Position numbers and translations under genes: made by a program
NCBI GenBank assembly: GCA_030533385.1
Contig: JAUNJG010000004.1
Location: 17,319 to 81,318, forward strand
DNA: 64,000 nucleotides
Origin: Eubacteriales bacterium
GTDB taxonomy: Bacteria; Bacillota; Clostridia; Lachnospirales; Lachnospiraceae
Direction: 5' to 3'
The notes under the pieces: model-generated
What the model was told of the DNA's origin: nothing
Database searches by the model: none
The model's input: only the letters and a program-made list of their open reading frames with translations
Shown here: positions 26,956 to 63,998 of the stretch, piece after piece
Layout of the letters: each line of letters starts with the position of its first letter
Position numbering within the stretch: position 1 is the stretch's first letter

Positions 26956-28125
26956 TTAGTAGTAGATGGACTCCATGATGAATCCGATGTAGTTGTCGTA
27001 GGAAGTTCCCTCGTAATCGATAGGAGCAAACTCTACGTCATAGCCAAATTTTTCTTTGGCAAGCGCCTGTAAATTGGCGGTATCGCAGTAATTATAACCG
27101 TTATCCTCGATGTATTCCATGGCGATGTAAGTGGCCATCTCCGGCAGGAATACGGAGGTGGACATCGGCCATCCGGACAGGCGGCCTGTCATGTCGGCTG
27201 CCGCTGCTTTTTCTGTAATCATCTGGTTTAATTTTTCCCAGTTGGTAGAATCCTCCTCAGAAATTTCCAGTCCAAGTACGGTAGGATATGCCTGAGTAGG
27301 CGTCGGGCAGCACTGCTCTGCAACCATGTATTTCAGCTTGAAGGCCTCGTCGATGATGACGTCGTACATTGGGCAGTTGGTTCCGAAAATATTGGTGTCC
27401 GGGCCGTATTTTTCAATCTGGCGTGGAATATCTTCCCGGAGGAACTGCTGCATTGCCTCCCGGCTGTCACCGGTCTGTGGGTCCGGGGTTTCCACTTCCA
27501 CCCAGGTCATGCCAAGCTCATCTGCCTTTGCCTTCATGGCATCTTTTCTGCCGGAGATCAGAGGTTTGGATAAGTGGGTAGGGAAAGAATAATGGATGAA
27601 GGTTTTCGCTCCCATGTCATAAGCTTTCTGTGCAATCTCGGAACCACGTTTGATCTGGTCGGTGTCCAGGTTCAAATCGATATTTTCTGCCATCTGGTCT
27701 GTCTCGTCATAAATTGCCGCAGAGATGGTGAGAATCTCAGGATTTTTTTCTTTAATCTGCTGCATGGCAGGAATCAGGCCGGACTGTCCGGAAGCGATGA
27801 TGACCGCCTTCATCAGCGGGTCGTCGGCAGCGGACACGATGGTGCTGATACCGGTCTCGATTTCCTCGCTGAAATTTTCAGGGAGGGTCAGGTGTTTCAC
27901 GATATCAGGATATTTTTTTGCCATCTCCTCCCCGGCGCGGTACTCGTCCTCGCTGATGGAGAGAGTAGGAGTGACGATAGCGATGTGATAAGCCTCTCCT
28001 GTTTCCGTGTTTGCGGCCTGGTCGCCGGTGGCCTGAGACTCAGAGCCGTTGGAACTGCCGCATCCTGTCACCAGCGTCAATACCATGACTGCCAGCATCA
28101 GGAAACTAAGTAATTTTTTCTTCAT
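26956..28125 (-). CDS. DUF3798 solute-binding lipoprotein
   Basis: A 389-residue lipoprotein. The signal peptide ends in the lipobox LVTGC with Cys22 as lipidation site, followed by a Ser/Gln-rich linker. The mature part is a DUF3798 domain, a two-lobe binding protein: HIAIVTPTLSISEDEYRAGEEM at its start, FIHYSFPTHLSKPLISGRKD, then GTNCPMYDVIIDEAF. It is anchored outside the membrane and hands its ligand to the RbsC-like permeases downstream. The ligand of this family is not known. AAGGAG precedes ATG 28125. Confidence 0.9.
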   Translation of the reverse strand: MKKKLLSFLMLAVMVLTLVTGCGSSNGSESQATGDQAANTETGEAYHIAIVTPTLSISEDEYRAGEEMAKKYPDIVKHLTLPENFSEEIETGISTIVSAADDPLMKAVIIASGQSGLIPAMQQIKEKNPEILTISAAIYDETDQMAENIDLNLDTDQIKRGSEIAQKAYDMGAKTFIHYSFPTHLSKPLISGRKDAMKAKADELGMTWVEVETPDPQTGDSREAMQQFLREDIPRQIEKYGPDTNIFGTNCPMYDVIIDEAFKLKYMVAEQCCPTPTQAYPTVLGLEISEEDSTNWEKLNQMITEKAAAADMTGRLSGWPMSTSVFLPEMATYIAMEYIEDNGYNYCDTANLQALAKEKFGYDVEFAPIDYEGTSYDNYIGFIMESIYY

Positions 28126-28520
28126 GTCTTTTGTCTCCTTTTCGTTTTTTTGTGTGTCAGTAAGCTGAAGCGCCATGCCCTGAATATGCCTGTTGCCGGA
28201 CATGGTTACACATTAAATTTATACTAACAGAAAAAAGAGAAAAACGCTAATCAAAAAATAGTATAAATGAGAAAGGTTTATAGAGGATATCTATAAATCA
28301 AGAAAGAAGGCGTTTTCTCTCTTTCTCCTTCCTCGTTTCTGAGATTGATATCAATAAGAATTTGATGATAGGAAAAGATAATATAATATTATATAAAGTA
28401 TAATATAAAAAGAAATATAATATTAAGATGCAGAAGTGCAAAGTGAAGAAAAAGGTGAAAGAACTTTGCAAAAAAGGTGGAAAAACAGGCGGATTTTGCG
28501 GGCAGATGCCGTCGGATTGG

Positions 28521-28550
28521 TTGACATTTTGGCGTGGGGGGGGGTAAAAT
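28521..28550 (+). promoter_or_regulatory. Promoter with a G9 tract in its spacer
   Basis: TTGACA (28521-28526) and TAAAAT (28545-28550) are 18 bases apart, and the last nine spacer bases (28536-28544) are all G. Loss of one G would give the optimal 17-base spacing. It points toward the GGDEF-EAL gene about 550 bases downstream. Confidence 0.6.
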
Positions 28551-28915
28551 AAACCTACATAAAATCTGTACAGTCTGCGCCTGTGAGGCGTCCAATCGGC
28601 GGAATATGCGGCCGGTGCATTGCAGTCTTCTCCTGATGAAAATGGACGGGTCGACCAATTGGAGCAGGCATGTTCGGATTCTTTCTGTCGGTCTAATCAA
28701 ATTGAGGATGATCAATCTCCGGCTCTTTGCCGCAGATGACTTTTTAGGAGCCGGAGTTGCTGCGACCTACAAAATATCTGCAAACTGTGACAAAGTTGTG
28801 ACAAAACATTTCAAAAAAATCCTTTTTTTGTTGAAAAAGAATAGAATTTTCCGTAAAATATAAAAAAGCCCTGTCGAAATAATCCCCCTGTTTGATGATA
28901 TAGAAATGCAAGAAT

Positions 28916-28985
28916 GCCCCGGCATTCCCGGGGCGGCGCACGGGCCAGAAAAGTCTGGCGTTTTACAGGTCTGTGCGTTTGCTGT
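28916..28985 (+). ncRNA. Structured leader element A upstream of the GGDEF-EAL gene
   Basis: A perfect hairpin GCCCCGG-cattc-CCGGGGC (28916-28934) is followed by GGCGCACGGG, an inner hairpin GCCAGA-aaag-TCTGGC (28944-28959), and GGTCTGTGCGTTTGCTGT (28968-28985). Element B at 44911-44988 has the same order of parts and 17 of 18 bases of the last segment. No known RNA family is recognised. Confidence 0.45.
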
Positions 28986-29103
28986 CACAGGTTTTTGATA
29001 TGTATGGAAGAAGAGGAGTGAGAACGTCTGTTCTGCCGTGGGGGGGGGGCGGAAAAACTGCTGGGAAATTACTGGTGGGAACCATAGAATGGAGGAAGGC
29101 ATA

Positions 29104-32100
29104 GTGGACAAGCAAGAAAAACAGATATCGAACCTGCCCGCAAATGAGTTGTGGAACCACTATGAAGAAATGAAAGAGATTGCATCCAGAGATGCGTTGA
29201 CGGGGGTACTCAACCGGTATGCGCTGGAGAGGGAGATTAATGAACGGCTGAGGACGATGGGAGAGTCGGAGTGCTGCGCTCTTTTCATCGTAGATTTGGA
29301 CAATTTTAAGGCTGTCAACGATACCCTCGGCCATCAGGCCGGTGATCAGGTCATTATAAAAGCTGCCCGCCTTTTGTCAGGTATGTTCCGTGCCACGGAT
29401 ATCGTGGGACGGCTGGGCGGCGATGAGTTTATCATTTTTTTGAGTGGGAGCCTGACGGAGGAGATGGTGCGAAGCAAGGGACAGGTCATCTGCGACCAGC
29501 TTCAGTATGTGATGGGGGTCAGTTCTCAGGTGGTGGTGACCGCCAGCGTGGGGATTCATCTTTCCGTCGGAGGGAAAAGCTTTGAGTATTTGTATCATTC
29601 GGCCGATCTGGCGCTTTATAAGGCGAAGAAAAGTGGGAAGCAAAGCTATTGTATCAAGATGAACACAGATGAGCAGGAAGAGATGCAGCAGGAAAAACTG
29701 GCGGCAGTCAATGCGGTGAGAATTCGCTCTTTGTTAGATTATATTGACAGTGGAGTAGCGATGATCGACGTGGGTGAGCCTATGACCTTCGTTTACGCCA
29801 GTTCCGCCTTTGCCAGAATGCTTGGCATAGATAAAAAGGAGTTGGAAAAGACTTCTGTTGTGGAATTCATTCATCTTGACGACAGGAATATGGTTCTGGA
29901 ATTATTTAAGAAGAAAGTCATAGAAAAAAATGAGACAGTCAGCCAGGTCACCCGGGTAATTTCCAGAGATGGACGGATTCACTGGTGGAGAGTTCACGCA
30001 GTCCGGGTGGAGTATGGCGAGAAGAAGCCTCTGGTTCTCATCACCGTCGTAGACATTTCTGATTTTAAAGAAAAAGAATCCACTCTGGAGCAAAAAAATG
30101 ACGTGTTGCAGATGGCAATGAATCAGACGACCCAGGGCATCTGGGAATTGGAGCTTGCCTCGAGGAGTTTTCACATGATGGGGGAGAACGAGAGCTTCCC
30201 CAAGGAGCTTTCCGAGACGCAGAACTTTCCTGAGGATCTGATCGAATCTCAGTGGATTTCTCCGGAATCGGCGTCAGCTTTCCGGGATTTTGCCGAGGAG
30301 ATTTTTAACGGGCGGATACAGGGCTATGCCAATTTTAAGATCCGCTACTGCCCTGCCGACCATTATGGATGGGCTTCTTTTTCCTACCGGGCAGTGTTCA
30401 ACGAGGAAGGGTTGCCGATTCGGGTGGTGGGTGTCATCGAAGGAATGAATTATGAGGGAACAAAGGAGGAACATCGGCTGAAGAGCATCTCTCTGCCGGG
30501 AAATCTGATGGATTCTCTCGTGTTCCAGTTTAACGGAAATCTGACGGCGGGCACTGTGGTTCAATGCTGGCGGGAAGGCAAGGACATGATCGGAGAAAAG
30601 GGCTTTCAGAGTTGCAGCCGGGTGCTGCGCTCCGAGATGAAGCGGACGTTTACGCCGGAAAAAGGGGTGCAGTTTTCCAAGATGCTCTCAAAAAATGCCC
30701 TTCTGCTTGCCTACAGGGAACGAAAAACCCGCTGGATGAGCTACGAGTACAGAAGAATCGACAGCGGAGGGATGATCAGCTGGGTTTCCTGCGTGATTAA
30801 CTTGTACGCTGATCCGCAGACCGATGAGGTTTATGTTGCCATGTGGATCAGTGATCTGGAAAAACGCCATCGGTGGGAGACCAAGTTTGACGTCAACATA
30901 TATAAGGATCCCATCAGCAAGCTGTATACCCGCTCCACGGTCAGAGAACTTTCCAGCCGGCTGTTGGAACAAAAAAAGCATAAGCTCTGCGGACTGGTGA
31001 TGGTGGAAATCGGCGGCATGGCAAGCATGTATGCCCAGTATTCGGGCAATATGGACGAGAAATGGAAAGGCGTGGTCACGGCGCTGATGCTGGCTATGGG
31101 CACCCGCTGCGTACCGGGACAGTTTGGGACGGACCGGTATCTTTTCTTCTTTCCTTCTGTTGCCAGCGAGGATGCCTTAAAAAGAAAGCTGGAACATGCC
31201 ATCTTATTCGTAAGAAACATCACTTCAGATTTGGTGGATGGCCGATTCCTGCGATTTATGGTGGGTGGTATCTGCCGATATCAAAACGAGACGAGCTACA
31301 ATATCCTGATGAAAAAGGTGCAGACGGTTTGTCAGAAATGGACCAATGCCTCTGGCGACAGGATCGTGTTTGCTGATGATTCAAAGGAGGAGGGATGGGA
31401 GCAGCTCAAAAAGAGCATTGTGAGCGACCAGCTCCGTATGCCTCAGGAGGAAGTGACAAGGCCTCTTTTGGAGTTGGAGAAAGATGCAGCCTTTCAGTGC
31501 GTCCTTGGTATGTTAAACGCAGACTCTTTGGCGGAGTCCGCCCGGTGCGTGCTGAAGACGCTGGGAGAGTATTATGAGGCAGATCGGGCCTATATTCTCG
31601 TTCCGGTGGACAGAGGGAACATCGTCACGATGCCTCACGAGTGGACGTCCAGCCAAAAGGCGAGCATCCAGCATGTGGTGTCGGGCATGATCACGTCCAA
31701 GTTTCCTCTGCTGGAGCGATGTGTCAGGGAGAACAAACCGGTGTTTTTGTCGAGGCAGACACCGATGATGGATGAAAAAAACAAAGAAGATTACTGGAAT
31801 TTTGCCATCTTCCCGATGCGGGATGAAGGGGAGATACAGAGTTTTTTGTGCATAGAAAATGCCCGGAACTACATAGCTGACGCCACCTTGCCATCCCTGC
31901 TCAGCTCCTGTCTGCTAAAAGAGAGGAAAAAATATTTAAAGCATGCCAGGCCGTCAGTGAATGAGAACGGGCTGCTGGACGTAGATTTGCCAAACCAAAA
32001 CAGCTACATGGAGAATATTTATACTTATAATTCCGATGTTTACAGCGCCCTGGGGGCGGTCTGCGTGGATGTGCCGGAGTTTTCCCTGATCAACGGAACC

Positions 32101-33240
32101 CGTGGCTTTGAGTACGGTCGCAAGCTGCTCTGGTATGTGATGCAGACAATGTCAGATATTTTTGGACGCGGTATGCTCTACCGGACCTGGGATGCAGAGT
32201 TTGTGGCGCTTTGCCCGAATACGACCCAGCAGATTTTCTTCGGAAAATGTGCCCGGCTCCGGGCAGCTTTGTCAAGAAGATATCCTAAGGACTTTCGTCT
32301 TGGCTATACCTGGACGGACAATGTGTTTAATGGAAAGACGCTGGTGGATGAGGCCAAAGTGTTGATGCGCTGTGACGTTCCCGACAAGATTCAAGTTCCG
32401 GCCAACAGCCTCCCTTCCGCTCTTTCTTCTTATAAGAATGTGGGGGACATGATAAACGCCGGAAGATTTACCGTATATTTTCAGCCGAAAATGGACATAA
32501 AAACCGGAAAGCTTGTCGGAGCGGAAGCGCTGGTGCGAGGCGTGGAAAAGTCAGGAAAAATCATTCCCCCGGGGCAGTTTGTGGAAGAACTGGAAAAGAA
32601 CGGATCCATCCGGGATCTGGATTTGTTCGTGCTAAACTATGTGATGCGAATTTTGGAGAAGTGGAAGACGGAGGGGAAAAAACTTGTTCCCATCTCCGTG
32701 AATTTTTCCAGAGTCACCCTCTTTGATCCTCGGATTCTTTCTTCGGTCATGGCGATTCAGAGCAGATATCCTGATTTGGACAGCGGGCTGGTTGAGTTGG
32801 AGATTACGGAGAGTGCCGGCAATGTGAGTCAGCAGACGCTGACCGAGGTTATGGAGAAGTTTCGGGAGCAGGGACTTTCTTTTGCCCTCGATGATTTTGG
32901 CTCGAAGTATTCCAATCTGGCGATTTTTACCAACGTCTATTTTGAGTCCATCAAGCTGGATCGGAGCCTGGTGGCGGATATCGCCAGCAATGAGAACAAC
33001 CAGATGATGGTGAGGGACATCATAAAGATATGCAAAAATAAAAAGATACGTTGCATCGCAGAAGGGACGGAGACAGAGGAACAGATTGCCACCCTCGCAA
33101 GGGTAGGCTGTGACTATGCCCAGGGATATTATTATGATAAGCCTTTAAAAGAAAAGATTTTTTATCAGAAATATTTGCGCTCAGAGAGAAAAGAAGAGCA
33201 GGTCGAAGTAGAACATAAAGAACAAAAACAACAAGAATAA
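29104..33240 (+). CDS. Multidomain GGDEF-PAS-GAF-EAL cyclic-di-GMP protein
   Basis: A 1378-residue cytosolic protein that may both make and break c-di-GMP. Residues about 25-185 are a GGDEF cyclase with intact GRLGGDEF (near 105). Two PAS-like domains follow (about 205-325, ending DISDFKEKE, and about 330-440), then a region with a third PAS-like fold, a degenerate GGDEF (FGTDRYLFFF), a GAF domain (about 800-960) and another degenerate GGDEF. The C-terminal EAL domain is intact: EALVR (E near 1141), SVNFSR, ELEITES, LDDFGSKYSN, SIKLDRS and EGTETEEQ. GTG 29104 has GGAGG 8 bases before it; ATG 29089 is an alternative. No membrane segment is seen. Confidence 0.9.
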   Translation: MDKQEKQISNLPANELWNHYEEMKEIASRDALTGVLNRYALEREINERLRTMGESECCALFIVDLDNFKAVNDTLGHQAGDQVIIKAARLLSGMFRATDIVGRLGGDEFIIFLSGSLTEEMVRSKGQVICDQLQYVMGVSSQVVVTASVGIHLSVGGKSFEYLYHSADLALYKAKKSGKQSYCIKMNTDEQEEMQQEKLAAVNAVRIRSLLDYIDSGVAMIDVGEPMTFVYASSAFARMLGIDKKELEKTSVVEFIHLDDRNMVLELFKKKVIEKNETVSQVTRVISRDGRIHWWRVHAVRVEYGEKKPLVLITVVDISDFKEKESTLEQKNDVLQMAMNQTTQGIWELELASRSFHMMGENESFPKELSETQNFPEDLIESQWISPESASAFRDFAEEIFNGRIQGYANFKIRYCPADHYGWASFSYRAVFNEEGLPIRVVGVIEGMNYEGTKEEHRLKSISLPGNLMDSLVFQFNGNLTAGTVVQCWREGKDMIGEKGFQSCSRVLRSEMKRTFTPEKGVQFSKMLSKNALLLAYRERKTRWMSYEYRRIDSGGMISWVSCVINLYADPQTDEVYVAMWISDLEKRHRWETKFDVNIYKDPISKLYTRSTVRELSSRLLEQKKHKLCGLVMVEIGGMASMYAQYSGNMDEKWKGVVTALMLAMGTRCVPGQFGTDRYLFFFPSVASEDALKRKLEHAILFVRNITSDLVDGRFLRFMVGGICRYQNETSYNILMKKVQTVCQKWTNASGDRIVFADDSKEEGWEQLKKSIVSDQLRMPQEEVTRPLLELEKDAAFQCVLGMLNADSLAESARCVLKTLGEYYEADRAYILVPVDRGNIVTMPHEWTSSQKASIQHVVSGMITSKFPLLERCVRENKPVFLSRQTPMMDEKNKEDYWNFAIFPMRDEGEIQSFLCIENARNYIADATLPSLLSSCLLKERKKYLKHARPSVNENGLLDVDLPNQNSYMENIYTYNSDVYSALGAVCVDVPEFSLINGTRGFEYGRKLLWYVMQTMSDIFGRGMLYRTWDAEFVALCPNTTQQIFFGKCARLRAALSRRYPKDFRLGYTWTDNVFNGKTLVDEAKVLMRCDVPDKIQVPANSLPSALSSYKNVGDMINAGRFTVYFQPKMDIKTGKLVGAEALVRGVEKSGKIIPPGQFVEELEKNGSIRDLDLFVLNYVMRILEKWKTEGKKLVPISVNFSRVTLFDPRILSSVMAIQSRYPDLDSGLVELEITESAGNVSQQTLTEVMEKFREQGLSFALDDFGSKYSNLAIFTNVYFESIKLDRSLVADIASNENNQMMVRDIIKICKNKKIRCIAEGTETEEQIATLARVGCDYAQGYYYDKPLKEKIFYQKYLRSERKEEQVEVEHKEQKQQE

Positions 33241-34951: not shown

Positions 34952-35280
34952 CAAACATATGAGGAGAGGGAAGGGGGAGCTGCCGAGCGTCCCGAGGGAA
35001 GGCCGGCGAAGCTTCGCCTTTTCGATTCTTCACAGCCTGAATATTGACTTTGCAGGGGGGATTTGTTAGAATTGTTACAGATTAAGGATAAAAAAGCAGG
35101 GATGTCATGTTCTTGGGCAAGAATGCCTGGTTCTGATGTCCCCTTTTTTCTAAGTGAAAGAAAAATAGATTTGCAGATGGGTCGCAGGATGGCGGCGGTT
35201 CGTGAAAACAACACGGGACGTGCTGCGGATGTGCGCCCGCCGGGTATCAGTTTAGCCGTCAGGTGCAGCGGAGGCAGGAA
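34952..35280 (+). other. Gap with terminator-like hairpins before the HD-GYP gene
   Basis: About 330 bases with no gene. GGCGAAGCTTCGCC is a 14-bp palindrome followed by TTTT near 35007-35024. GGGATGTCA pairs with TGATGTCCC (two wobbles) around an inner TTCTT/AAGAA stem and is followed by CTTTTTT near 35100-35150. Both look like terminators of the flavodoxin transcript. Confidence 0.55.
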
Positions 35281-37320
35281 ATGAAAGAAGGATTAAAGCA
35301 GATTCTTGTTGTTGATGACAGTAAAATAAATCTTACCATGGTCAGGCAGGCATTGCCGCAGTATCAGGTGACGCCGGTACTTTCGGGAAGACAGGCACTG
35401 AAGTTTCTGGAAAGAAAGACGCCGGATTTGATTTTGCTTGATGTCAATATGCCGGAGATGGATGGAAAAGAAACACTAAAAGAAATCCGGCGGCAGGAGC
35501 ATCTAAAAAAGATACCGATTATTTTTCTGACTGCGGACAATTCCACGGAGACCGAGGTGGAATGTCTGGAACTTGGGGCAGATGATTACATCGCAAGACC
35601 CTTCATCCCGGAAGTGATGCGCCAGAGAATCAGCCGCATCTTAGAGTTGTGGGAGCTTCGTCATGATCTGGAATATCAGTTGATACAAAGGACGAGTCAG
35701 ATGGAGAAAGTCACCTTTCAGTCCATCACGGCGATTGCCTATGCCATAGACGCCAAAGACCCTTACACCCACGGACACTCCGTTCGGGTGGCCCAGTGTG
35801 CGGTGGAGATTGCCAAGCGGTTAAACTGGAGCAAGGAAGACCGGCAAAATTTATTTTTTTCGGCCCTGTTGCATGACATTGGCAAAATCGGGGTTCCCGA
35901 TTCTATTTTAAATAAGGCTTCCGCCCTGACCAAAGAGGAGATGGATGTGATGAAGAGGCATCCTCTCATCGGCGGGGACATTCTAAAGGATATCAAAGCC
36001 ATCCGCCATGTGGAGGACGGCGCCCGGTATCATCATGAAAGGTACGACGGCGCCGGATATCCCTACGGCGTGGAGGGAGAGAGGATTCCTCTTATAGCAA
36101 GGATTATCGGGGTGGCGGACGCCTATGACGCCATGACCTCAAACCGGGCTTACCGGAAGCATCTGCCTCGGGAAAAAGTGATAGAGGAGCTGGAACATGG
36201 CAGGGGAACACAGTTTGACCCAATCTTGACGGATTTGTTTTTGGAGATGCTTCACGACGGATTTTATCTGACAGCCGAGGAGGGAGAGGCCTCCTCTTCT
36301 GCGGAGGAGGAAGAAGGGTTGATTATCCGCAATATAACCGCAAAGGATAAGCCGGATGTCTCCCACCATCTGTCCATGGACGCCCTCACCGGCCTGCACA
36401 GCAGAAGGTACGCCACGGAGATGATGGACCAATACCTGGAAAGCCATTCCAATCACGGCACTTTGTTTGTCGTCGGAGTGGACAATCTAAAATATCTGAA
36501 TAAGCATTTCGGATATCTCCACGGGGATATTTTGCTGAGGGGAACGGCGAGCCTGCTTCAGCAGGAAATCAAAGAGGACGGTTTTGCTGCCCGAGTCAGC
36601 GGAGATGAGTTCCTGCTGTTTTTTGAGAAAGCGTTTGACAAAGAGGAAATCGTAGGGCGGGCGCAGGCGATTTTGAAAGACTGCCGCAATCTTGCCAGAA
36701 ATGCCTCTTATGGAAAATACATGAGCTTTTCCATCGGCATCTCGGTGGCGCCGGAAGATGGAAGAACTTTTGAGGAATTGTACGAAAATGCAGATAAGGC
36801 CCTCTATTTTGCCAAGAGAAGCGGAAGCTGGACTTTTCACCAGTTCAGCCAGGAGGAGGAAGTCGGACAGACGGAAGCTTCCCACGCCGATGAGACCATA
36901 TTGCGGCAGATCATGAGGGGAAGAAAGCCGGTTTTGTCCGTGGGGACGGTTCACGGAGATGCGGAAAAGTTTGACGCACTCTGTGCGCTTCTCCACCGGA
37001 GTGTGGAGAGAAACAGACGGCCGGTGCAGCTGGTTCTTCTGACCTTGTCGGATGTTTCCGGTGCTTCGGGAAAAAGTGACCCGCAAATTATAGAGGAGGC
37101 CATGGAGATGCTGGAGAGTGCCATCCAGGCATCGGTTCGGAAGGGAGATATCTCTTCCCGGTACAGCAGCTGCCAGGTCTTTGTGGTGCTGGTGGACTCT
37201 GACCTGGAAAATGGAAGGTTGGCGATGGAGCGCATCGTCGGGCAGTTTAAAAAGATTTATCCAACCCAGAGGATTCAGATTGCCTATAACATTCAGGAAA
37301 TTCTTCCGGAAAAAGAGTAG
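35281..37320 (+). CDS. Response regulator with HD-GYP and GGDEF domains
   Basis: A 679-residue soluble protein. The receiver (1-125) has D12/D13, phospho-acceptor D54 in LLDVNMPEMDG, but Arg107 (DDYIARPF) where Lys is usual. The HD-GYP phosphodiesterase (about 140-335) has HDIGKIGVPDS (H199, D200) and HHERYDGAGYP, so it should split c-di-GMP. A GGDEF domain (about 360-520) carries RVSGDEF (S440-F444), a variant often still active. A C-terminal second GGDEF-like domain (about 550-675) has SSCQVF in place of the motif and is inactive. GGAGG precedes ATG 35281. It heads the phosphorelay run and is the likely final phosphate acceptor. Confidence 0.93.
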   Translation: MKEGLKQILVVDDSKINLTMVRQALPQYQVTPVLSGRQALKFLERKTPDLILLDVNMPEMDGKETLKEIRRQEHLKKIPIIFLTADNSTETEVECLELGADDYIARPFIPEVMRQRISRILELWELRHDLEYQLIQRTSQMEKVTFQSITAIAYAIDAKDPYTHGHSVRVAQCAVEIAKRLNWSKEDRQNLFFSALLHDIGKIGVPDSILNKASALTKEEMDVMKRHPLIGGDILKDIKAIRHVEDGARYHHERYDGAGYPYGVEGERIPLIARIIGVADAYDAMTSNRAYRKHLPREKVIEELEHGRGTQFDPILTDLFLEMLHDGFYLTAEEGEASSSAEEEEGLIIRNITAKDKPDVSHHLSMDALTGLHSRRYATEMMDQYLESHSNHGTLFVVGVDNLKYLNKHFGYLHGDILLRGTASLLQQEIKEDGFAARVSGDEFLLFFEKAFDKEEIVGRAQAILKDCRNLARNASYGKYMSFSIGISVAPEDGRTFEELYENADKALYFAKRSGSWTFHQFSQEEEVGQTEASHADETILRQIMRGRKPVLSVGTVHGDAEKFDALCALLHRSVERNRRPVQLVLLTLSDVSGASGKSDPQIIEEAMEMLESAIQASVRKGDISSRYSSCQVFVVLVDSDLENGRLAMERIVGQFKKIYPTQRIQIAYNIQEILPEKE

Positions 37321-45066: not shown

Positions 45067-45972
45067 ATGAAATGCGGAGAAAATATTACAAAACATGATT
45101 TGTTATGCTATATCAAAGATTTAAAAATGGTATTTGACAGCGTGCGCATGGTGGATCCTTATGGACTTCAGGTGCTGGGCGATGATTTGAAGGCGAGCAA
45201 TCCCAACAATGCCTGCTATAAAGTGTGGAGCAGGAATTTAAGGTGCAGCAACTGCATCAGCCTGAAAGCACACATAGATTTTCGACGAAAAATTAAATAT
45301 GAATTTGAGGGAGACAATGCTTTTTTTGTCGTTGCCATGCCGTTTCGATTGGTGGATGAAAATAACCGTATCGTCGTGGTGGAGATGATGAACGACGTGT
45401 CCGAGGAGATGCAGGTCAGAACGGTGGGCAGAGAGATCGTTGCCAAGACCATGAACGAGATTGACCACAAGCTTTACATGGATTCCCTCACGAGGACGTT
45501 TAACCGCAGGTACTTTGATGACCATATGTTTATTTACCAGACAAAAAGGGCGCTGTCAAGAAAAATCGGATTTATCGTGTGGGACGTAAGAAAGTTCAAG
45601 GAGATTAACGACACCTATGGACATGCCGGAGGGGACAAAGTGCTGAGAAAGGTGGCGGAGATTATGCTGCTCAACACCCGGGACGATGAGGCCGTGATTC
45701 GGATAGGAGGAGATGAGTTTCTCATTATCGTGCAGGGTTGCTCGGAAGAAGATTTGAGGAGGATGATAGAAAGAATCCGAGAAAAGATTGAAAATATGAA
45801 CATGCCTGAAATGCCGGGACATTGCTTTAAAATCAACGTGGGATATTCCTATACGGATGGTTTTGATATGAGCTGCGAGATGATTCAGGACATGATGCGG
45901 ACTGCGGATAAGCAGATGTATAAAGATAAGGTGGAAAGCTACCGGGATGACCTGGAAGAGGCGGTCGTGTAG
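45067..45972 (+). CDS. Diguanylate cyclase with Cys-containing sensory domain
   Basis: A 301-residue soluble protein. The N-terminal part (about 10-125) resembles a PAS-type sensor and carries a Cys set: NNACYKVWSRNLRCSNCIS, possible ligands for a metal or heme, or a redox switch. The C-terminal GGDEF domain (about 135-295) has DSLTRTFNRRYFDDH, DVRKFKEINDTYGH and intact RIGGDEF, so it should make c-di-GMP. AAAGGAGAGG precedes ATG 45067. A structured leader lies upstream. Confidence 0.9.
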   Translation: MKCGENITKHDLLCYIKDLKMVFDSVRMVDPYGLQVLGDDLKASNPNNACYKVWSRNLRCSNCISLKAHIDFRRKIKYEFEGDNAFFVVAMPFRLVDENNRIVVVEMMNDVSEEMQVRTVGREIVAKTMNEIDHKLYMDSLTRTFNRRYFDDHMFIYQTKRALSRKIGFIVWDVRKFKEINDTYGHAGGDKVLRKVAEIMLLNTRDDEAVIRIGGDEFLIIVQGCSEEDLRRMIERIREKIENMNMPEMPGHCFKINVGYSYTDGFDMSCEMIQDMMRTADKQMYKDKVESYRDDLEEAVV

Positions 45973-46272: not shown

Positions 46273-47658
46273 ATGGAAAAAGGAAGAAAGCAAGGAGCCG
46301 GCGGAATTAAAATAAAAAATGTTGCCTGGGCAGGTATGTCAGTTTGCATTGTCTTGATGCTGGTTACTTATCTGGGAATTTCCCGGGTGAAAGATAGCTA
46401 TGAGCATCTGATGGATAGCAGCAGTTGCTGCGTGGAGGGATACCGGTGTGCAGTCAGCCTGGAGCGCTCTTCTGATTATCTGACGGAGGAGGTCAGAATG
46501 TTCGTTTTGACGATGGAAGCGCAGCATATGTGGAATTACTTTGAGGAAGTTGACAGCCAAAACAGAGAAAAGACGGTAAAACGACTGGGAGAAATCTGTG
46601 CGGAGGAAGACGGGGAGGCAGTCAGCCAGCTCAGAGCGGCTCTGGAAGAATCCAAGGAACTGGAAGAAAGAGAAGTACATGCCATGAAGCTTATCTGTAC
46701 CAACCTGGGCATGGAGGAGGAGAGGCTCCCGGCTTCCGTGGCGGAGTGGGAGCTGACGGAAGAAGAGCGGGACATGACGAAAAAGAAGCGGGAGGAAGAA
46801 AGCTACCGTCTCGTCTACGGAAAAGGATATTTGAGCAGCAAACACACCATAAAGAGAAACACGGAGAAAACCCTGATTCTCCTGGCAGACAAGATGGAAA
46901 GCCGCCAGAAGATCAGTGGAGATGACTTAAAAAAGACCCTCGCCGTCCAGAAGATTTATACTTTTCTGATGATGTTGCTGGTATGTATCGTCATCGGTTT
47001 GGTGGGAATTCTCGTCGTCTACCCGGTGACGGAGCATGTCCGTTCCATCGAGGAGAACCAGCCGTGGAAAAATATTGGCGGGTATGAGATTCGCTGCCTG
47101 GCGTCGGTCTATAATCAACTGTATGCAAGAAACAACATGTATCGGGAAGAATTAAAATATAAGGCAGAGCATGATACCCTGACGGGCATTTGTAACAGGG
47201 AAGTATTTCAGGAACGCAAAAATGCACTGATGGGAAAGGATGTGGGCGTTGCGCTCCTTCTGGTGGATATTGATGAGTTCAAACATGTGAATGACTCGAT
47301 GGGACACGATGTGGGAGATGAGGTGCTTCGCCGTGTGGCGCAATCTTTAAAGAAAATGAACATAGAGGAGAGATACTGCGTGGCCCGCATCGGCGGAGAT
47401 GAGTTTGCCCTGATTTTGAGAGGGGTCACGACGGAAGATTTTTCCTGGATTGCGTCGGAGATAGATAGATTGAACGAACAATATAAAGATGGAGATGAAG
47501 TGTTGCCGCCGATTTCCATCAGTGGAGGCATTGCATTCTCGGAGAGTGGATATGTCGACACCCTGTTTCATCAGGCGGACAAGGCGCTGTATTACACGAA
47601 GCATAACGGAAGAAGGGGATGTACGCTCTATGACCCGACGATGGAGACGCAGCAATGA
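46273..47658 (+). CDS. Membrane-anchored diguanylate cyclase
   Basis: A 461-residue protein. TM helix 1 lies at about 17-37 and TM helix 2 at about 228-252; the roughly 190-residue segment between them is outside the cell and mostly charged helix, like a four-helix-bundle sensor. After a short HAMP-like linker comes the GGDEF domain (about 295-455): DTLTGICNREVFQE, DIDEFKHVNDSMGHD and intact RIGGDEF. It should make c-di-GMP in response to an outside signal. It has its own extended -10 promoter. Confidence 0.92.
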   Translation: MEKGRKQGAGGIKIKNVAWAGMSVCIVLMLVTYLGISRVKDSYEHLMDSSSCCVEGYRCAVSLERSSDYLTEEVRMFVLTMEAQHMWNYFEEVDSQNREKTVKRLGEICAEEDGEAVSQLRAALEESKELEEREVHAMKLICTNLGMEEERLPASVAEWELTEEERDMTKKKREEESYRLVYGKGYLSSKHTIKRNTEKTLILLADKMESRQKISGDDLKKTLAVQKIYTFLMMLLVCIVIGLVGILVVYPVTEHVRSIEENQPWKNIGGYEIRCLASVYNQLYARNNMYREELKYKAEHDTLTGICNREVFQERKNALMGKDVGVALLLVDIDEFKHVNDSMGHDVGDEVLRRVAQSLKKMNIEERYCVARIGGDEFALILRGVTTEDFSWIASEIDRLNEQYKDGDEVLPPISISGGIAFSESGYVDTLFHQADKALYYTKHNGRRGCTLYDPTMETQQ

Positions 47659-63876: not shown

Positions 63877-63899
63877 AAAAAAATAAGTAATGAATTCCA

Positions 63900-63998
63900 T
63901 ATGAAAGGCAAAACCGTCGAAAGACGGCGACGCAAAGCTATAGGGCCGGGAGTTTGACAGTTGAATAATGTAAAAATGTACCGCAGGGCTTATATTTC
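63900..63998 (+). ncRNA. Cyclic-di-GMP-I (GEMM) riboswitch
   Basis: AAAGGCAAAACC, a GAAA tetraloop in CCGTCGAAAGACGG, GCGACGCAAAGC and TATAGGGCC are the signature parts of the GEMM-I aptamer in the right order. The P1b stem GTC-GAAA-GAC is intact, and the second stem lies between GGGCC and the GGGCTT near 63985. It binds c-di-GMP and controls the gene downstream, beyond the window edge. This links the signalling island to an output. Confidence 0.88.

Follow-up and report, generated by a model that had tools for sequence, protein, structure and literature searches.

The first of two poly-G tracts upstream of a GGDEF-PAS-EAL gene in a Lachnospiraceae genome is probably a spacer switch in the sigma-70 promoter of that gene, of the kind known from porA of Neisseria meningitidis, and a member of a set of c-di-GMP loci bearing such tracts. 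The gene lies in the window, the whole 64,000-nucleotide stretch of DNA that was analysed (Table 1). The G9 tract forms the second half of the spacer and abuts the -10 box, and near-consensus boxes thus surround a homopolymer of at least eight bases, as in porA-type promoters. Because the tract is wholly within the spacer, its length sets the -35/-10 distance. The original prediction had described nine G in the 18-base spacer between TTGACA and TAAAAT and ten G ending 54 bases (29050-29103) before the GTG start, and both are borne out by the sequence. Slipped-strand mispairing would add or remove G residues in the G9 tract, the distance between the boxes would change, and transcription of the gene would be altered heritably and reversibly. 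Slippage in this strain, use of the promoter and an effect on c-di-GMP are what we infer from this layout. The locus would be one of a set, as 8 of 28 GGDEF genes have an upstream run of at least eight G, positioned in promoter spacers (two phosphodiesterase-like genes and the dual gene of the window), near the ribosome site at three cyclase-like genes, or at other upstream places. The cells of one clone would then be expected to have different c-di-GMP set-points.

Table 1. Features of the window gene and its upstream region (window positions).
Feature	Position	Strand	Basis
Sigma-70-type candidate promoter, TTGACA-N18-TAAAAT	28521..28550	+	sequence; consensus scan 11/12
-35 box, TTGACA	28521-28526		
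Spacer, 18 bases	28527-28544		
First tract, G9	28536-28544		sequence
-10 box, TAAAAT	28545-28550		
Second promoter-like site, TTGAAA-N17-TAAAAT, without poly-G	28831..28859	+	consensus scan 10/12
Small upstream frame, 34 codons (ATG 29000, TAG 29102-29104)	29000..29104	+	translation
Second tract, G10, in leader	29040..29049	+	sequence
GGDEF-PAS-EAL gene, 1378 aa (GTG 29104)	29104..33240	+	Pfam (longer frame from 29038); motifs

Two properties of the upstream region count against a promoter switch. The poly-G promoter ends 553 bases before the GTG, implying a leader of about 550 nt, and the second promoter-like site sits between the G9 tract and the gene, where it could possibly bypass the switch. 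It is conceivable, though unlikely, that the poly-G promoter is minor or unused, that this second site drives the gene and that both tracts have little effect. The spacing of the second site, 17 bases, is the textbook one, and the first tract lies about 560 bases from the start codon, compared with 142 and 309 bases at two other genes of the genome with poly-G spacers (C111 and C128, see below). However, this explanation accounts neither for the enrichment of G runs before GGDEF genes nor for the location of the genome's three exact TTGACA/poly-G promoters, every one of which stands in front of a GGDEF/EAL gene. Between the poly-G promoter and the gene, the + strand gave no terminator-like site in the scan.

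The G10 tract could serve a different mode of control. It is crossed by the small upstream frame, for which GTG 29018 is an alternative possible start, and since the TAG of that frame overlaps the GTG of the main gene, the tract may act on translation. A switch working mainly in this way, with a change of one G uncoupling or fusing the two frames, is a little less probable still than a dominant second promoter. The overlapping stop and start codons speak for it, and three other GGDEF genes carry G9-G10 tracts 4, 5 or 8 bases from the start codon. On the other hand, the upstream starts have weak ribosome sites, whereas the main start has a GGAGG of its own, as read from the sequence; moreover, the leader matches no known RNA family (Rfam, up to E 1) and its folding is not unusual (z -1.1). 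The two tracts share an 18-base match with 16 of 18 positions equal.

An invertible promoter, as at pdcB and pdcC of Clostridioides difficile, would act on a target gene of the same kind. These two genes encode phase-variable c-di-GMP phosphodiesterases with a degenerate GGDEF and a conserved EAL domain (PMC9286219, accessible part) and they switch by DNA inversion, not by slippage. At the window locus inversion is highly improbable and was rejected, as no inverted repeats of at least 12 bases occur in 28100-29200.

The window protein has both catalytic motif sets. The GGDEF motif is preceded, five residues upstream, by a RATD I-site, and EAL, ExE, DDFG, IKxD, EGxE and QG motifs are present; we take all of these to have their usual catalytic meaning. 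With both sets, the protein may make and break c-di-GMP. In the same genome it has a full-length paralogue, C136, 39% identical. No orthologue for comparison of the tract was found in 60 other genomes among the matches listed, which cover one domain or the last third only at 27-43% identity. A protein scan of genome contigs, from which records near the window's own were possibly excluded, likewise gave none, and the flank pattern of the window has 0 matches in viral contigs. The window holds further c-di-GMP genes, one at 35263-37320 (receiver-HD-GYP-GGDEF-like on sequence reading) and two with GGDEF matches at about 45475-45930 and 47164-47613, as well as a c-di-GMP-I riboswitch near its end (63897-63968, + strand, 43.9 bits).

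It is the placement of G runs, not their number, that sets c-di-GMP genes apart. The window has five overlapping G8 matches against a mean of 4.6 in dinucleotide shuffles, and the number of runs there was therefore not used as an argument. At 2.70 Mb in 174 contigs (92% complete), the assembly contains 25 runs of at least eight G, compared with 0-12 each (73 in total) in 23 other species of the genus, whose assemblies differ in size and completeness; in the whole genome, GGGGGGGGTA has 14 matches and the reversed pattern 2. Nine of the 25 runs stand on the same strand before eight of the 28 GGDEF genes (31 GGDEF matches, counted as 28 genes), with about 0.1 expected by position (P ~4e-15). Counted by gene and with the window gene and its runs left out, the proportion is 7/23 (P 4e-9 to 2e-8, assuming 2000 or 2500 genes for this unannotated genome). 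Relatedness among several of the eight genes means that their tracts may be partly inherited. Collapsing paralogues or genes with a common domain build (C111/C128/C159, window/C136 and C1/C106) leaves 4/20 (P 7e-5 to 1.6e-4) and, without the window's group, 3/19 (P 0.001-0.002), both with the gene number likewise assumed.

The runs lie within 600 bases of the gene at the window locus (two runs), C111, C128, C136, C159, C1 and C95, and about 780 bases away at C106. C1, C95 and C106 have a GGDEF motif without an EAL domain, C136 a GGDEF motif and a degenerate EAL domain, and C111, C128 and C159 EAL motifs with a degenerate GGDEF, which makes the latter three similar to pdcB and pdcC; in the window protein both are intact. 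Makers and breakers of c-di-GMP are thus both represented among the eight. The TTGACA/poly-G spacer promoter occurs three times in the genome (four overlapping rows of the scan), each time before a GGDEF/EAL gene, and the reversed pattern 0 times. Its spacing is 17 at C111 (G8, to TAATAT), 18 at the window gene (G9) and 19 at C128 (G10, to TATTAT). By contrast, the tracts at C1, C95 and C136 (G9-G10) are ribosome-site tracts, separated from the ATG by 5, 8 and 4 bases, respectively. At C159 the run is 104 bases from the start and follows a TTGACA-18-TAAAAT site; read as a promoter, the tract itself (TAGACA-16-TGAAAT) was too weak to count, and so was a promoter at the C106 tract. These positions hint at a division among seven genes, with runs in or near promoters at the four EAL-motif genes and at the ribosome site of the three with a GGDEF motif but no intact EAL.

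C111, C128 and C159 belong to a set of nine paralogues, the other eight being 33-66% identical to C128 over nearly the full length; the best match to this type in 60 other genomes, among the matches listed, is 31%. The remaining six paralogues have no run of at least eight G in the 420 bases before their starts. As for outputs, PilZ has no match in the genome, but there are 4 c-di-GMP-I riboswitches, one of them that at the window's end. Another (G000:C106:21294-21379, - strand, in L165) lies between the G9 tract at C106:21651 and the SBP_bac_3-GGDEF cyclase gene starting at C106:20871, so that this cyclase may be responsive to its own product as well as bearing a slippery tract. An EAL gene with one in-frame TAG was observed at G000:C52:30953-31657 (- strand). 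The wider reading of the set, namely that poly-G contingency loci make up at least 8 of 28 GGDEF genes, of both the cyclase and the phosphodiesterase type, and let a clone sample many combinations of c-di-GMP inputs, is put forward tentatively, as it falls somewhat short of even probability; it includes both the spacer tracts at phosphodiesterase-like genes and the ribosome-site tracts at cyclase-like genes.

In the genus, TTGACA followed by G7 is found in this genome only (1 of 24); none of the 23 congeners has it, although one of them (G016) has a match to the reversed pattern, which counts against the switch. In 397 genomes of Lachnospiraceae, scanned for TTGACA-N3..12-G7-N0..4-TANNNT, the promoter type occurs in 51, own genome included, and the reversed control in one (two matches, G237). 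The 81 match rows correspond to 75 sites once overlapping readings had been merged, with preference given to the longer reading or to one with TATAAT; the row of C128 was extended by three bases to reach TATTAT. The tract (7-11 G) abuts the -10 box in 60 of the 75 sites, the box being TATAAT in 20, TAAAAT in 18 and TAGAAT in 10. Spacers of 19 bases are the commonest (21 sites), followed by 18 (16 sites). The original prediction had held that one G fewer would give ideal spacing at the window promoter. This agrees with the textbook spacing of 17 but not with the family, where 18-19 prevails; it may be that populations mostly occupy a weak state, or that the optimum is different for poly-G spacers. 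As to the predicted control through a promoter spacer, the layout is real and is seen again at two more GGDEF/EAL genes of the genome and in 50 further family genomes, where some related copies differ in G number.

In named genomes, a stricter pattern gave at least 119 stretches; among the 80 listed, many are titled Clostridia or Lachnospiraceae, and Bacilli, Treponema, Helicobacter, Moraxella, Streptococcus and more are also represented. For each promoter, the downstream frame was taken, independently of annotation, to be the longest of those that begin shortly after it. Such frames are signal-like in 45 of 69 family cases compared with 34 of 91 control frames from the same DNA (P 7e-4, signal peptides being called by a simple hydrophobicity rule). 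Of 72 sites outside the own genome, three close to the end of a contig (two in G107, one in G259) were left out and L215 had no frame. Pfam analysis of the 68 frames obtained gave GGDEF in one (L209 of G349); the 25 commonest of 59 Pfam families include LRR_5 (5), ABC transporter (4) and solute-binding, Big_2 and choline-binding (2 each). Initially 20 of 69 frames were incomplete; 17 were extended, of which 4 still lack an end, and extension revealed no GGDEF motif in any. In the named set the motif match gave GGDEF in 0 of 74 frames, 24 of which are cut by the stretch end; 9 further sites have no frame, and the contig of L262 is identical with that of L184 in the family set. The porA-type spacer layout is thus a common putative device in the family, mostly before other genes and often before those of secreted proteins. 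That it so rarely precedes GGDEF genes elsewhere (1/68) counts against a c-di-GMP switch; the contrast with the own genome (3/3) is significant (P 7e-5, or 0.001 with C111 and C128 taken as one), and this species seems to have wired the device to c-di-GMP enzymes, makers and breakers.

Some related copies of such promoters differ in tract length. C111 and C128 have similar bases around tracts of G8 and G10. The paralogues L199 and L200 of G125 (89% identical) have nearly matching flanks, and the tract, G9TG versus G7, is their only difference between -35 and -10. Furthermore, the orthologues L194 and L196 of two congeners (81% identical) carry G11 and G9, L277 and L278 (78% identical) G10 and G9, and L207 and L208, similar promoters of one genome, G7 and G8. 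Equal lengths, which count against slippage, were found in L274 and L294 (similar promoters, both G9, with adjoining DNA 95% and proteins 38% identical), the L279 pair (proteins 42%), three copies in G259 and C13/C132 of G123. Alternatively, the tracts might be a side effect of biased mutation in which G runs with a T behind them grow longer (GnT hotspots; PMC12344412, accessible part), with growth halted by the selected T of the -10 box and without any switching. The 60 of 75 tracts that abut the -10 box, which starts with T, fit this explanation, as do the 25 runs here against 0-12 in 23 congeners. Nevertheless, a bias by itself picks neither GGDEF genes nor signal-bearing proteins, and the GGDEF enrichment speaks against it as the whole story; we consider it a rather remote alternative to the spacer switch.

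The best-known examples of phase variation concern surface structures. The spacer switch proposed for the window gene resembles porA, in which a poly-G tract likewise lies between -35 and -10 and its length sets their distance (PMC7864442, in part); the same excerpt, citing van der Ende 1995, names 17 as optimal there. The two cases differ in that porA encodes a surface protein of a Gram-negative bacterium, whereas here the gene is for a signalling enzyme in a Lachnospiraceae genome. In Treponema pallidum, tprL (and tprE/G/J) also have a promoter poly-G whose length affects activity (PMC7864442, same part). Phase variation of a phosphodiesterase in the E. coli sfa operon is likewise linked to c-di-GMP, yet that switch is epigenetic, unlike poly-G (PMC11868660, accessible part). 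Pilus switches of the gut commensal Bifidobacterium breve also use G-tract slippage but act on the coding frame rather than on a promoter spacer, and further G-tracts, located in promoter spacers, are noted by the same authors (PMC9187656, from an excerpt). The nearest precedent found is a speculation, in the portion available of PMC8115180, about joint action of c-di-GMP enzymes and homopolymer indels in P. aeruginosa. The review PMC11868660, in its accessible part, calls the link between phase variation and c-di-GMP a novel insight and names inversion and epigenetic examples. No simple-repeat switch of a GGDEF/EAL gene was found in the literature searched, which consisted mostly of papers outside subscription and included part of PMC5084427. 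The predicted novelty in this group therefore fits the literature for c-di-GMP enzymes but does not extend to the promoter type itself, which is widespread. If true, the control of several c-di-GMP enzymes of one genome by simple repeats would add a third route to the type of target known from C. difficile, and heritable second-messenger heterogeneity would be directly testable by G counts in reads. Single cells of this gut-type bacterium could reset their lifestyle at random via G runs. Moreover, the family-wide poly-G promoters provide a list of candidate switches in Lachnospiraceae.

Other runs of the genome lie within or close to genes of different kinds, assigned by sequence reading. G8-G9 runs occur in long open frames of C13 (L022/L078; a 398-aa frame beside sugar-modification-like genes), C62 (L025/L083; surface-type), C136:11220 (L031/L092; chemotaxis-like, near the end of the frame) and C164 (L100; 1002 aa, on the other strand), and these are candidate frame-shift switches. 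Finally, the G9 at L101 (C167:64847) is another ribosome-site run, with 4 bases between it and the ATG of a regulator-like gene.
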